The notes below the pieces were generated by a model. It was not told the origin of the DNA. It ran no database searches and worked only from the letters and a program-made list of their open reading frames with translations. From Leifsonia sp. CL147 (GTDB lineage Bacteria > Actinomycetota > Actinomycetes > Actinomycetales > Microbacteriaceae), in contig NZ_FOTM01000008.1 in the NCBI RefSeq assembly GCF_900114565.1, forward strand, positions 67,860 to 131,859: a stretch of 64,000 bases of DNA, given 5' to 3'. A program made the position numbers and the translations under genes. The first letter of the stretch is position 1; each line of letters starts with the position of its first letter. This document shows positions 27,669-35,575 of this stretch, piece by piece.

Positions 27669-27754
27669 GGTCTTAGTAGTGTCCGCACGCAAACCCTGAG
27701 CCAGGCTCGGCCATCAGGATCTCGGCCCCTCCGCTTGGTATGAAAGGTGTTCAC

Positions 27755-29155
27755 ATGGCAACCCGTGCAGCAACGAAGGCCCGCGACGCGGAGGTCGAGG
27801 TCGATGAGACCGTGACCGTCGCGGCGGACAGCGAGACGACGAAGCCCGCAGCCAAGAAGGCGGGCGCGAAGGCCGCCCCCAAGAAGGCGGCGGCGAAGAC
27901 CACGACGGCTGCGAAGAAGCAGACCGCAGCGGCGAAGGACAAGGCAGGCGCGTCGGGCGACGACGAGGAGCTCGACGACGACGCCGAAATCGAGATCGAC
28001 GAGGATGCGGTGGTCGTCGACGATGACGCCGTAGCAACCGACGACACCGACACCGACACCGACACCGAGGCCGAGGCCGCGCCGGTCGACCCGGAAGCGG
28101 ACGACGCCGACGACACCGACGCGGAGGACGGCAAGGCCGTCGTCGGCGGTACGCCGATCGCGATCCCCCTGCCCACCGATGCCCTCGTGCTGCGCGCCGT
28201 GGACGAGGACGACGACATCCCCGTCTACTCGTCGACGATCACCGGCGCCACCGCGGACCCGGTCAAGGACTATCTGAAGCAGATCGGCAAGGTCCCCCTG
28301 CTGAACGCGGCAGAGGAGGTCGAGCTCGCGATGCGCATCGAGGCCGGGCTGTTCGCCGAGGACAAGCTGGCCAACACCCCGAACCTGACCAAGGAGCTGG
28401 AGCGCGAGCTGCGGTGGGTCGCCCGCGACGGCCAGCGCGCCAAGAGCCACCTGCTGGGCGCCAACCTGCGTCTCGTGGTCAGCCTGGCCAAGCGCTACAC
28501 CGGCCGCGGCATGCAGTTCCTCGACCTCATCCAGGAGGGCAACCTGGGCCTCATCCGTGCCGTCGAGAAGTTCGACTACACGAAGGGCTTCAAGTTCTCC
28601 ACCTACGCCACCTGGTGGATCCGTCAGGCGATCACCCGCGCGATGGCCGACCAGGCGCGCACGATCCGCATCCCGGTCCACATGGTGGAGGTCATCAACA
28701 AGCTGGCGCGCGTGCAGCGCCAGATGCTGCAGGACCTCGGCCGCGAGCCCACTCCGGAAGAGCTCTCCAAGGAGCTCGACATGACCCCGGAGAAGGTCAT
28801 CGAGGTGCAGAAGTACGGTCGCGAGCCCATCTCGCTCCACACTCCTCTCGGCGAGGACGGGGACAGCGAGTTCGGCGACCTGATCGAGGACACCGAGGCG
28901 GTCGTCCCGGCGGATGCGGTCGGCTTCACCATGCTGCAGAAGCAGCTGGAGAGCCTGCTCGACTCCCTGTCCGAGCGCGAGGCGGGCGTGATCCGCATGC
29001 GCTTCGGCCTGGGCGACGGGATGCCCAAGACCCTCGACCAGATCGGTGACACTTTCGGCGTGACGCGCGAGCGCATCCGCCAGATCGAGTCGAAGACGAT
29101 GGCGAAGCTGCGCCACCCGTCCCGCTCGCAGTCGCTGCGCGACTACCTCGAGTAA
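27755..29155 (+). CDS. sigA: Principal RNA polymerase sigma factor
   Basis: 466-residue housekeeping sigma-70. The N-terminal 130 residues are a low-complexity Lys/Ala then Asp/Glu tract ([15 protein letters not shown], then [12 protein letters not shown]), typical of actinobacterial RpoD/HrdB. Then region 1.2 [21 protein letters not shown], region 2 [20 protein letters not shown] and [14 protein letters not shown], region 3, and region 4 with [19 protein letters not shown]. Start ATG 27755 is preferred over ATG 27740, because GAAAGG lies in between as ribosome site. murT begins 4 bases after the stop. Confidence 0.96.
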
Positions 29156-29159
29156 ACCG

Positions 29160-30434
29160 GTGCGCTACCGACTGGCGGTCATCGCCGGCCGCCTCGCCCG
29201 CTGGCTTCTGCGCCTGCGGGGAGGCGGCTCCGCGGTGCCGGGCCGCGTCGCGCTCGCGATCGCTCCGAAGTTTCTCGAGCGCGCCGTCAGCCGGCTGCCG
29301 CTGGGAGTCGTGTTCGTGTCCGGCTCGAACGGCAAGTCGACGACGACGAACATGCTCACGGCGATCCTGCGGGAGCACGGGCTGGAGGTCTTCACCAACC
29401 CCTCCGGCGGAAATCTCCCGCAGGGCATCGCCTCGGCGCTCCTCGCCGACGTTCCCCTCGACGGTTACGTGCGCGGCGATGTCGGCGTGATCGAGGTGGA
29501 TGAGGCGTACGGCGTCGACCTGGCGCGTGTCCTCAAGCCGCGCGGTTCCCTCCTGCTCAACGTGCAGATCGACCAGCTGAACCGGTTCTTCGAGCCGGCC
29601 CGCGTGATCGGGATGCTGCGCTCGATCGCCGAGGGCTCCTCCGAGTTCGTGGTGGTGAACGCCGACGACGACAGCCTCGCGCGCGTCGGTGGCGAGCTGG
29701 CCGCCGCGGACCGGGACGTGACCACGTTCGCGGTGGCGCCATCCATCATCGAGTCCTCGCCGAACGGCCTCGCCAACGTCAAGGACCTCACGGGCGCCGC
29801 CGCGGCGGCGCTGCCCGTCCCGTCCGTCTTCGTCAGCAAACTCGAGGTGCAGAGCGCCCAGCTCACCATCGGCGGCGAGAATGTGCGCATCGGGCTGCCG
29901 GCCCGCGGCCTGCACTACGCCGTGGATGCGGCGGGCGCGACGGCGATGGCGCGGCGCCTGCTCGGCGACCGGTTTCAGCCGAACGCCGTGGTCGCTGCCA
30001 TGGCCGCGCTCCGCACCGTCTACGGTCGCGGCGAGACGCTGCACGTGGGCGACGAGGAGCTCGAGATCATCATGATGAAGAATCCGCCGAGCCTCCAGCT
30101 GAACCTCGACTATCTGAGCGAGTCGCCCGAGCAGGTGTTCGTCTCGGTCGACGAGGGCACGCCCGACCCGTCGTGGGTCTACGACATCGACCTGTCCAAG
30201 CTCAGCCACGTGGATGTGGTCTCCGGAACGAAGGCCTGGCAGTTCGCGACGCGGTTCGCGTACGCCGGCGTCGAGGTCGATCAGGTCGTGCCCGAGCTGA
30301 AGCCCGCTCTGCAGGCCTTCCTCACCCTGCCGAAGCCGTCACGCGGCAGGAAGACCATGATCGTGAACTACGAGCAGATGATGCTGATCCGCAAGCAGCT
30401 CGGCTTCCTCGATCTGGAGGGCGGGGAGCGATGA
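29160..30434 (+). CDS. murT: MurT-type Mur ligase (lipid II D-Glu alpha-carboxyl activating subunit)
   Basis: 424 residues. Central Mur-ligase ATPase domain with P-loop VSGSNGKSTTTN (Lys59), IEVDEAYG and NVQIDQLNRF, and a C-terminal DUF1727 domain (DPSWVYDIDLSKL, KAWQFATRFAYAGVEVDQV). In S. aureus MurT activates the alpha-carboxyl of D-Glu in lipid II for amidation by GatD. Here the whole protein has no cysteine, so the Cys4 zinc ribbon of typical MurT is absent and the stretch after FAVAPS reads as ordinary loop. GTG start; ATGA overlap with gatD. See the findings for a possible changed reaction. Confidence 0.9.
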   Translation: MRYRLAVIAGRLARWLLRLRGGGSAVPGRVALAIAPKFLERAVSRLPLGVVFVSGSNGKSTTTNMLTAILREHGLEVFTNPSGGNLPQGIASALLADVPLDGYVRGDVGVIEVDEAYGVDLARVLKPRGSLLLNVQIDQLNRFFEPARVIGMLRSIAEGSSEFVVVNADDDSLARVGGELAAADRDVTTFAVAPSIIESSPNGLANVKDLTGAAAAALPVPSVFVSKLEVQSAQLTIGGENVRIGLPARGLHYAVDAAGATAMARRLLGDRFQPNAVVAAMAALRTVYGRGETLHVGDEELEIIMMKNPPSLQLNLDYLSESPEQVFVSVDEGTPDPSWVYDIDLSKLSHVDVVSGTKAWQFATRFAYAGVEVDQVVPELKPALQAFLTLPKPSRGRKTMIVNYEQMMLIRKQLGFLDLEGGER

Positions 30435-31147
30435 CCGTCCTGCGCATCCTGCACCTCTATCCGGCGGAGCTCGGCATCAACGGCGACGCGGGCAACGTGC
30501 TCGCCCTGGCCGAGCGCGCCCGCTGGCGGGGTGTCGACGTGGACGTGGTGACCCACGCGCCCGGTGGCGAGCTGCCCTCCAGCGTGGACCTGATCCACAT
30601 CGGCTCCGGACCGTTGTCGGCGCAGCGCGCCGTCCACGAAGATGTGCTGCGGATCGCGCCGCGGCTGCGCGCCTGGCGCGACGCCGGCGTCCCGGTCCTC
30701 GCGATCGCCGGCGGCTGGCAGCTGCTGGGCACGGAGCTCGAGACGGCCGAGGGCGAGGTGCTGGCGGGAGCCGCGGTCTTCCCCAGCCGCTCGGCGCTCG
30801 GCGCCAAGCGGCACGTCGGCGAGATCGTCGTGCGCCTGGCGGACGGCACCACGATCGCCGGGTTCGAGAACCATTCCGCCCGCACCGTGCTCGACGGTGC
30901 CGAGCCTCTGGGCCGCGTCCTCAGCGGCACGGGCAACGACGGCTCTGTGGAGGGTGTGGTCGTCGGCGCGTCGATCGGAACGCACCTGCACGGACCTCTC
31001 CTGCCGATGAACCCCGTGCTCGCGGACCGCCTCCTGGGGACGGCTCTGCGCAGCGAGCTCCCGCCCGTGGCGCAGACCGAGCGGGTCGACCGCTACGCCA
31101 CCAACGCGCGGCGCGCGATCGCCGAGCGCCTCAGCGTCTCCCTCTGA
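30431..31147 (+). CDS. gatD: GatD-like glutamine amidotransferase subunit lacking the catalytic cysteine
   Basis: 238 residues, CobB/CobQ-like class I amidotransferase fold (LRILHLYPAELGINGDAGNVLAL at the N-terminus). GatD normally supplies ammonia from glutamine to MurT using a Cys in a CGGYQ-type elbow. Here the elbow reads LAIAGGWQLLG: Ala93 (codon GCC at 30707-30709) replaces the nucleophile. The usual catalytic His remains in GTHLHGPLLPMNP (His187). The gene is otherwise intact and coupled to murT (ATGA), so it is probably a functional protein without glutaminase activity. Confidence 0.88.
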   Translation: MTVLRILHLYPAELGINGDAGNVLALAERARWRGVDVDVVTHAPGGELPSSVDLIHIGSGPLSAQRAVHEDVLRIAPRLRAWRDAGVPVLAIAGGWQLLGTELETAEGEVLAGAAVFPSRSALGAKRHVGEIVVRLADGTTIAGFENHSARTVLDGAEPLGRVLSGTGNDGSVEGVVVGASIGTHLHGPLLPMNPVLADRLLGTALRSELPPVAQTERVDRYATNARRAIAERLSVSL

Positions 31148-31180: not shown

Positions 31181-32257
31181 TCAGCCGACGTAGACGCGGG
31201 GGACGCGGGCGGCGACGCCGGTGACCATCTCGTCGGCGATCGTCTCGGCCCAGTCGGCGTACTGCTCCGCCGTCGGCTCGCCGGCGGTGCCGGGACCGAA
31301 GAGGATGGCGGTGTCGCCCAGCTCGACGCGGCTCCGTCCCGCATCCACCAGCATGCTGTCGGCCGCCACCTCGACGACCGGGCAGCGACGGCCGTTCAGC
31401 AGAACCGAGGTCTTCGCAATGCCGAGCGTCGGGACGCCGTCCGCATAGCCGATGCCCAGGCGCGCGCGAGCGGTCCCGCCGACGTGCACTTCGGTGACCG
31501 GCGCCTCGAGCCGCATCACCGGGATGAGGCCCAGCTCGGCCCCGGTCGAGTCGTCGAACGGGGAGAATCCGTACGCGGCGATCCCGAAGCGCACGAACGA
31601 GAAGCGGGCCTCGGGCATCCGGATGCCGGCCGAGCTCGCTGCGAGATGCAGCGCCTCGAACCGGGCGCCGAGCGCTTCCGCCTCCGCGACCGCCGCACGG
31701 AACTCGGCGAGTGCGGCCGCATCCGCGGTGATCGAGGCGTCCGCGAGATGCGACCAGGCGGCGCGGATGCGGACCACACCGCGGCGCTGAAGGTCCACGG
31801 CGGATTCCACCAGGCCCGGCCACTCCTCACGGGTGGCGCCGTTGCGGCTGAGCCCTGTGTCCACCTTCAGGTGCACGACGGCGGGACGGTCGGCGCCCGC
31901 CGCTGCGATCGCATCCAGCTGCCACGCTGCGGAGACGCCGAGCTCGATGTCCGCCTCGATGCCGGCCCGCCAATCGGTGTCCTGTCCGTGCAGCCAGGCG
32001 AGGAGCGGGACGGTGACCCCGGCGTGACGCAGGAGGAGCCCGGCCGGGATCTCCAGGACCGCCAGCGACGTGGCGCCGGCCTGGAGCCCCGCCTCCGCGA
32101 TGGGGAGGAGTCCGTGCCCGTACGCGTCCGCCTTCACGGCGAGCATTGTCTCGGCGGGAGCGATCAGCCGGGTCAGGTGCGCGACGTTGTGCCGCAGCGC
32201 GGCGAGGTCGATCACGGCGCGGGGGAGCGGCTCGGCGACCGCATCCACGATGGTCAT
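31181..32257 (-). CDS. alr: Alanine racemase
   Basis: PLP enzyme making D-alanine for peptidoglycan. 358 residues. PLP lysine Lys42 in LAVKADAYGHG; catalytic Tyr in the C-terminal domain within RARLGIGYADGVP. The Met-Asp-Gln loop usual in Alr (RVSMDQ) reads VAADSMLVDAG, a divergence that could affect substrate choice. Start ATG 32257 agrees with the family; the longer frame overlaps the upstream gene. It lies 10 bases after the racemase-like gene at 32268 in one operon and converges on gatD. Confidence 0.92.
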   Translation of the reverse strand: MTIVDAVAEPLPRAVIDLAALRHNVAHLTRLIAPAETMLAVKADAYGHGLLPIAEAGLQAGATSLAVLEIPAGLLLRHAGVTVPLLAWLHGQDTDWRAGIEADIELGVSAAWQLDAIAAAGADRPAVVHLKVDTGLSRNGATREEWPGLVESAVDLQRRGVVRIRAAWSHLADASITADAAALAEFRAAVAEAEALGARFEALHLAASSAGIRMPEARFSFVRFGIAAYGFSPFDDSTGAELGLIPVMRLEAPVTEVHVGGTARARLGIGYADGVPTLGIAKTSVLLNGRRCPVVEVAADSMLVDAGRSRVELGDTAILFGPGTAGEPTAEQYADWAETIADEMVTGVAARVPRVYVG

Positions 32258-32267
32258 GCGGGAGCCC

Positions 32268-32984
32268 TCATGAGCGGTGGATCCTCTCGATGCGCCGGCC
32301 GAGCCGGCTCGTGATGACCGGGGCGGCGATGCGCAGGGCGTCCGCCCAGTCCAGCACCGAGGGCTCACCGCGGCCCGGGTCGCCGAACAGGACGACGGGG
32401 TCGCCCGGCCGGGCGGAGTCGTCGCCGATGTCGACCACGAACTGGTCCATCGCGATGCGCCCGGTGATCCGGCCGATGGTGTCGCCGACCTTCACCGGTG
32501 CCGTGTTGGATGCCACGCGCAGGATGCCGTCGGCGTAGCCGAGAGCGACCAGCACCAGGGTGGTCGGTCGCGGGGTGCGGTAGGTGTAGCCGTAGGAGAC
32601 GCCACGATCGGCGGGGACGCGCTTCACGGCGATGATCTCGCCCTCCAGGCGCATGGCGGGCAAGGAGGGACGGGCGGGGTCGAGACCGAACAGCGCCGGG
32701 CCGAGGACCGCGGTGCCGGCGGCAGCACCATCCCTGCCGACGGTGACACGCGCGGTGAGCCCCGCGTCCGCGATGGCCGCCGCATCCTCCACCCGGGAGA
32801 CGAGAAAACCGCCGACCCCGGCATCCGTCAGCGCACCTGCCACGGGCAAGAGCCCGTGGCCGTACGCATCGGCGCGGAGATCGGCGGTGGAGCCGGGGAG
32901 CGATGACGCGAGAGCGGATGCCGTGGAGCGGATGGCGGAGAGGTCGATGTGGGCGTGCCTGCGCACGCTCGTGCCTGTCGCCAT
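32268..32984 (-). CDS. Truncated alanine-racemase-like protein (no PLP lysine)
   Basis: 238 residues, against about 360-380 for alanine racemase. The start of the barrel (HIDLSAIRSTA, DLRADAYGHGLLPV) and the full C-terminal domain (LEGEIIAVKRVP, VALGYADGILR, GRIAMDQFVVDIG) are present, but the middle of the barrel is missing. The PLP lysine position is Arg37 (LRADAYGHG). It keeps the MDQ loop that its neighbour has lost. Reading frame, codon use and coupling to alr look healthy, so it is a maintained gene and not debris. It may be a partner or regulator of alr. Confidence 0.82.
   Translation of the reverse strand: MATGTSVRRHAHIDLSAIRSTASALASSLPGSTADLRADAYGHGLLPVAGALTDAGVGGFLVSRVEDAAAIADAGLTARVTVGRDGAAAGTAVLGPALFGLDPARPSLPAMRLEGEIIAVKRVPADRGVSYGYTYRTPRPTTLVLVALGYADGILRVASNTAPVKVGDTIGRITGRIAMDQFVVDIGDDSARPGDPVVLFGDPGRGEPSVLDWADALRIAAPVITSRLGRRIERIHRS

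Positions 32985-33475: not shown

Positions 33476-35575
<2,100 letters not shown>

Follow-up and report, generated by a model that had tools for sequence, protein, structure and literature searches.

A MurT-GatD pair without the glutaminase nucleophile in Microbacteriaceae, a candidate amino-acid ligase for the B-type peptidoglycan bridge

The window, i.e., the whole stretch of 64,000 nucleotides of Leifsonia sp. CL147 (contig NZ_FOTM01000008.1) that was analyzed, contains a gene run in the order sigA, murT, gatD, alr, alr2, parE. The murT gene (29160..30434, forward strand, GTG start, 424 amino acids) encodes a Mur ligase without any Cys and with its ligase residues intact, and gatD (30431..31147, forward strand, 238 amino acids) encodes a GATase_3 fold minus its nucleophile; pairs of this kind are called type V here. 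Both frames are intact and overlap by an ATGA, as a sequence-only reading of the window had described, and its statement that MurT has no Cys at all was confirmed in the 424-residue translation. The same reading had placed an alanine at the catalytic Cys of GatD. Read again in the sequence and in the alignment, codon 30707..30709 (forward strand) is GCC for Ala93, at the position where GatD enzymes have the catalytic Cys, within an elbow that reads VLAIAGGWQLLG. Residue positions were matched to the pneumococcal enzyme by alignment and with the accessible part of PMC6085368. GatD retains a catalytic-type His187 and Asp19, and its residue 17 is Asn, where pneumococcal GatD has the glutamine-site Tyr30. 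MurT has Lys59, Asn85, Asp114/Glu115, Asp138, Arg142, Arg290, and Asp336, and its codon 29568..29570 (forward strand) is for Ile137, which aligns with Arg135 of Streptococcus pneumoniae MurT, the gate of the ammonia channel.

Pfam and NCBIfam assign the two proteins as MurT_C/Mur_ligase_M (MurT) and GATase_3 (GatD). MurT matches PF08245 at 37 bits (cut-off 24) and PF08353 at 35 bits (cut-off 25), in keeping with the earlier claim that the MurT_C (DUF1727) domain is kept. The best NCBIfam models are those for MurT and GatD, their equivalog cut-offs being missed by far (103 of 800 bits for MurT; 126 of 450 and 100 of 400 bits for GatD). The AlphaFold2 model of GatD (pLDDT 96.7) has a TM-score of 0.91 to Staphylococcus aureus GatD (6gs2_A). 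The MurT model (pLDDT 90.9) has as its best PDB match 9sq9_B, the MurT of a MurT/GatD complex, with a TM-score of 0.62. Models for anti-phage defence gave no match.

A sequencing error at Ala93, or a local pseudogene, was considered and ruled out. The alanine is also found in three other genomes of the same genus (L003-L005) and in the nearest named relatives among the best 80 of 420 matches, Leifsonia virtsii (96% amino acid identity) and L. aquatica (91%); the sequence-only reading had allowed for an intact Cys in close relatives, and these carry none. The dN/dS ratio of the window against L003-L005 is 0.09-0.11 for murT and 0.14-0.29 for gatD; for gatD it reaches up to 0.51 against other genera. 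A second, canonical murT-gatD elsewhere in the genome, the other reservation of that reading, was not found either: the genome has one MurT_C match and one GatD match.

GatD and MurT from 230 distinct locus rows were grouped by elbow residue and ribbon motif. Type V has neither elbow Cys nor ribbon (160 rows in Microbacteriaceae by this rule, 159 after L120 was assigned to type X on the tree). Type W has the Cys and is scored ribbon-less by the motif rule (19 rows in the family and 30 outside it), and type C has both Cys and ribbon (4 in the family and 3 outside it). Type X, with 11 rows in the family, has other elbow residues (His in 8, Gly in 2, Gln in 1) with a ribbon or a THN/TQN elbow. 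Please note that three rows stand outside the counts of 159 and 56 given below, i.e., L138 and L152 from outside the family, which have an elbow Cys, and L184 from Clavibacter, which has Gly.

The nucleophile Cys93 of GatD is present in 56/56 Cys-type pairs and in 0/159 type V pairs, which have A, G, S, T, or N instead. Two further positions behave in the same way: the counterpart of the gate Arg135, MurT residue 137, is Arg in 56/56 Cys-type pairs and in 0/159 type V, and the counterpart of Tyr30, GatD residue 17, is Tyr in 56/56 Cys-type and 0/159 type V (one row being gapped). In the accessible part of PMC6085368, changing this Tyr in the pneumococcal GatD left 7% activity. The GGGQD motif of GatD has become GSGPxS-like in type V, and the catalytic His187 is present in 95 of the 151 type V rows read there, 8 further rows being unread at this site. 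On the ligase side, MurT K59, N85, D114, E115, D138, R142, R290, and D336 are invariant in 159/159 type V pairs, which bears out the earlier remark that the ATP-site Lys59 is kept, and N308 is Asn in 155/159. In pneumococcal numbering, the MurT residues compared are K59, N85, D112/E113, D136, R140, and D355, and the type V invariants include counterparts of those whose change cut activity, as far as the accessible part of that study goes (PMC6085368). From these residue counts, the kept folds, and the dN/dS values, it follows that the glutaminase site is gone and that the ligase is under selection.

Compared with the MurT-GatD lipid II isoglutaminyl synthase of S. aureus, S. pneumoniae, and S. 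pyogenes, type V shares both subunits, their folds, the ATP and acceptor residues of MurT, and Asp336 (pneumococcal Asp355); it differs in being without the GatD Cys, the glutamine-site Tyr, the gate Arg of MurT, and the zinc ribbon. Our data suggest that the isoglutaminyl synthase annotation would be wrong for the whole clade. MurC-F ligases, which ligate peptides by acyl-phosphate chemistry, share the fold of type V MurT (TM-score of 0.68 between the AlphaFold2 model and MurF 4qf5); unlike them, type V has a GatD partner and a MurT_C (DUF1727) domain. The type W pairs of the order are, like type V, ribbon-less by the motif rule and are its neighbours in the tree, but they keep the Cys, the His, the Tyr, and the gate Arg, and the flanks read, of about 1.5-3 kb, showed no SigA. 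The zinc ribbon had been taken earlier to have been lost as part of the same change as the Cys, which does not agree with the 49 distinct pairs that keep the Cys and score as ribbon-less; judged from these motifs, absence of the ribbon is separate from loss of the GatD Cys.

Within the sample, type V loci are confined to Microbacteriaceae, and a GatD Cys was read in each of the 35 pairs from outside the family. The earlier argument from the zinc ribbon proved uninformative. Two database titles touch on this confinement. The L211 locus, titled Planococcus sp. APC 4015, is type V and its MurT groups with Microbacterium; the title looks wrong and the locus Microbacterium-like. The MurT of L219, titled Cellulomonadaceae and also type V, is sister to that of L106 (support 100), itself type V, and groups with Pontimonas. 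A scan of named loci with a type V alignment as the query, which is biased to type V and is no census, gave an elbow in 79 of the best 80 of 420 matches, with Cys in 0; the remaining locus (L246, Naasia) has no GatD in the stretch read. Type V titles include Leifsonia, Pseudoclavibacter, Herbiconiux, Subtercola, Clavibacter, Frondihabitans, Salinibacterium, Agreia, Mycetocola, Frigoribacterium, Curtobacterium, Okibacterium, Microbacterium, Microcella, Arenivirga, Cryobacterium, Agromyces, Plantibacter, Rathayibacter, Galbitalea, Rhodoluna, Pontimonas, and others.

In a MurT tree of 116 rows, 63 of the 64 V-labelled rows come out as a single group (SH-aLRT 100) lying among the order's Cys-type MurTs, and the 64th, L120, falls with type X; this is a quick tree without bootstrap and with a midpoint root, in which the long rows L104 and L112 are uncertain. 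The type W rows L166, L167, and L171, on deep branches, fall with type C in this tree; they are ribbon-less by the motif rule only. The accessible part of the pneumococcal study describes murTgatD as universally present in Actinobacteria, with the Cys tetrad in some (PMC6085368); this universality fails in our sample, since MurT is found at E<1e-30 in 107/297 genomes of the sampled order.

The type V pair sits in a defined slot. Its left border (27740..29155, forward strand) we take from its sequence to be sigA, present in 108/110 type V loci that span 9 kb or more, and its right border (33476..35575, forward strand) is presumably, also from its sequence, a parE-type topoisomerase subunit, present in 106/110. 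Between gatD and parE lie two genes on the reverse strand. The alr-like gene (31181..32257, its start being an internal ATG) encodes a racemase that keeps the PLP Lys (VKADAYGHG), and alr2 (32268..32984) a shortened Alr paralogue in which this Lys is replaced (LRADAYGHG) and the C-terminal GYADG Tyr is kept. The genome has three Alr domains in all, the best-scoring one being on another contig. Across loci the PLP Lys is kept in 63/63 Alr and in 0/67 Alr2 (20 of these are gapped at the column; 0/47 ungapped), and the Alr2 barrel is often shrunken; the C-domain Tyr position is Tyr in 22, Phe in 16, and another residue in 25 of the 63 Alr, and Tyr or Phe in 67/67 Alr2. This complementary decay suggests an obligate heterodimer, and Alr with Alr2 is, as predicted from the alignment, probably an obligate heterodimeric racemase that may make the D-residue of the bridge. 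Of the 110 type V loci that span 9 kb or more, only 38 show alr2 together with alr in the stretch. The two genes are also retained in 9/20 slots without MurT-GatD, so they are not tied to it.

Not every genome of the family has MurT. With a MurT profile run on 199 Microbacteriaceae genomes, matches at E 4e-41 or better were taken as MurT and weaker ones (best E 8.7e-20) as other Mur ligases; MurT was found in 164/199 genomes and only weaker matches in 35/199. A second search of 20 of these 35 MurT-less genomes gave MurT matches no better than 8.7e-20; GatD matches turned up in 6 of the 20, the best of them no stronger than E 3e-6. The sigA region was read in the same 20 genomes (the stretches L303 and L308 are short). 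In 15/20 a protein of about 230 amino acids of the PF01996 (CofE-like) family follows sigA, with EctB between them in L305 (TIGR02407, 602 bits against a cut-off of 552); in the 16 genomes in which a CofE-like gene was located, it is in the slot in 15 and on another contig in one. A PF14397 (ATPgrasp_ST) protein is in the slot of 13/20. Pfam was run on three CofE-like and four ATP-grasp slot proteins, the rest being placed by search matches. The CofE-like and ATP-grasp genes can be seen between sigA and parE across L292-L309. There is no room for a ligase in the slots of L294, L308, and L310, and that of L311 contains, by eye, transporter-like genes. An ATP-grasp gene was found in 33 genomes; type X genomes are among them, as is one of type V (G016).

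A CofE-like protein at E<1e-100 occurs in 28/35 MurT-less and 0/164 MurT-bearing genomes (two-by-two table 28, 7, 0, 164; Fisher p = 6e-28, kinship ignored), with weaker matches in the MurT-bearing G049, G112, and G134. Nine sampled genera hold both states, and every MurT-less genome there has the CofE-like gene. A search of plasmids with the CofE-like protein gave no match. CofE (coenzyme F420-0:L-glutamate ligase, PF01996) joins a carboxyl to an amino acid through an amide bond; it belongs to a different protein family from the type V pair, and its relative fills the same slot in genomes without the pair. The three slot CofE-like proteins score 31-35 bits against a CofE equivalog cut-off of 181, so their substrate can only be inferred. 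From sequence, the alternation looks as if, at one locus, one ligase had repeatedly taken the place of another.

These counts bear on the idea that the pair alone defines B-type cross-linking, which the sequence-only reading had put forward and which we abandon. With 35/199 genomes MurT-less, 28 of them having the CofE-like gene, the type V pair was rejected as a universal B-type enzyme; besides, of 111 typed genomes, 14 showed only type W pairs and 4 only type C. The type-W-only set leaves out G189, which has a MurT of type V level on another contig, and each of the 18 Cys-type-only genomes has one match to PF08353, a less sensitive model (141 genomes against 164 by the MurT profile), so some of them may have a second pair. 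These 18 genomes, together with the 7/199 that have neither MurT nor the CofE-like protein, would imply that B-type synthesis there needs other enzymes or that these lineages differ in wall type. The data favour the pair being one of several interchangeable ligases rather than the single B-type enzyme.

Microbacteriaceae have group-B peptidoglycan, which is cross-linked via the alpha-carboxyl of D-Glu, and EctB is the diaminobutyrate aminotransferase that makes diaminobutyrate. We think it quite likely, on sequence grounds, that the type V MurT-GatD arose from an amidotransferase and works as an amino-acid ligase that adds the bridge residue to D-Glu, as had been proposed earlier; the dismantled glutaminase site, the invariant ligase site, the racemase and EctB neighbours, and the CofE-like replacement favour this. 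With ATP, MurT would activate a peptidoglycan precursor at the alpha-carboxyl of its D-Glu, as canonical MurT does, and the attacking nucleophile would be the amino group of the interpeptide-bridge residue instead of glutamine-derived ammonia. In a B2-type wall this residue would be a D-diamino acid, e.g., D-diaminobutyrate or D-ornithine, for which the neighbouring Alr/Alr2 racemase may be the source in some genomes, and GatD would stay as a non-hydrolysing subunit. Substrate, product, and the role of GatD are those we infer for the pair, amino-acid ligation being suggested by the CofE-like replacement and the slot-mates.

Alternatively, MurT might still make D-isoglutamine from free ammonium with GatD as a stabiliser, consistent with the retained ligase residues and GatD fold and with the use of free ammonia by other glutamine amidotransferases once their glutaminase is disabled. 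We consider this unlikely: none of the 159 type V pairs has the gate Arg137 or the glutamine-site Tyr, the replacing gene comes from an amino-acid-ligase family, a racemase pair can adjoin the locus, and in the wall described for Clavibacter, as far as the accessible part of the source goes, the bridge occupies the carboxyl. It also seems rather improbable that the pair acts outside the B-type bridge, e.g., by placing glycine on the stem carboxyl or by acting on another wall precursor. The genus-level group g78, whose MurT has 84% identity to that of Microbacterium, would fit such a role, with at least 8 genomes without MurT and 4 with it among the matches listed, so that one genus can in part do without the pair; the slot-mates, however, indicate D-amino acids and, in one genome, diaminobutyrate. 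That the pair is a pseudo-enzyme or relic under relaxed constraint is very hard to believe given the within-genus dN/dS of 0.09-0.29, the invariant MurT catalytic residues, and its retention in streamlined genomes, one of 0.93 Mb, even though GatD is more variable than MurT and some small genomes have a short, very divergent GatD of which both ends align.

Returning to the amino-acid ligase, we tentatively extend it to the slot as a whole, a speculative reading that may well need revision. The sigA-parE slot could be a bridge-building cassette for group-B peptidoglycan with exchangeable ligases, i.e., a type V or X MurT-GatD without glutaminase, or a CofE-like protein, sometimes an ATP-grasp, joined in part of the family by the split racemase; in type V, the former glutamine pocket of GatD and the opened ammonia channel could bind an intact D-diamino acid and pass it on to the activated D-Glu, so that an ammonia tunnel would have become an amino-acid gate. 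B-type walls are reported for single genera in the accessible parts of PMC9603630, PMC4156110, and PMC7033078, and a genus table in the last has a B-type wall in 9 of 10 genera compared, the tenth being given as unknown (PMC7033078, accessible part). No paper naming the enzyme that attaches the B-type bridge was found among the matches listed, and none relevant to a link of CofE with peptidoglycan; likewise, none was found that joins MurT, GatD, and Microbacteriaceae, or MurT and B-type peptidoglycan, in a search with most subscription journals outside its scope. The data give named candidate genes and a natural set of interchangeable enzymes for the B-type bridge. If true, a glutamine amidotransferase would here have given up its glutaminase and turned into an amino-acid ligase, a clear example of such a change.

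Several loci have features of their own. The type X loci (L055-L061, L114-L117) have MurT frames of about 460-550 amino acids, most of which include a Cys4 ribbon, and their GatD has an elbow like FTHNALEVLG and lacks the catalytic His; SigA is nearby in L055-L061, and six type X genomes have an ATP-grasp gene close to MurT. In the small planktonic genomes L109, L111, L112, L119, L121, L242, and L249, GatD is short (frames of 205-224 amino acids); its two ends still align and its middle part diverges strongly, and MurT is near full length. The very reduced one-contig genome L104 (927303 bp) retains the Cys-less GatD, MurT, and alr2-alr. In the Microbacterium-like L124 (G446, g78), MurT is closest to that of Pseudoclavibacter (70%), which suggests horizontal transfer, as judged from sequence identity. 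A MurT-GatD that keeps the Cys was found by a plasmid search with MurT on a plasmid of Leifsonia shinshuensis (L312, NZ_CP043642.1), where it adjoins an M15 peptidase that the record labels, by prediction, as vanY-like.
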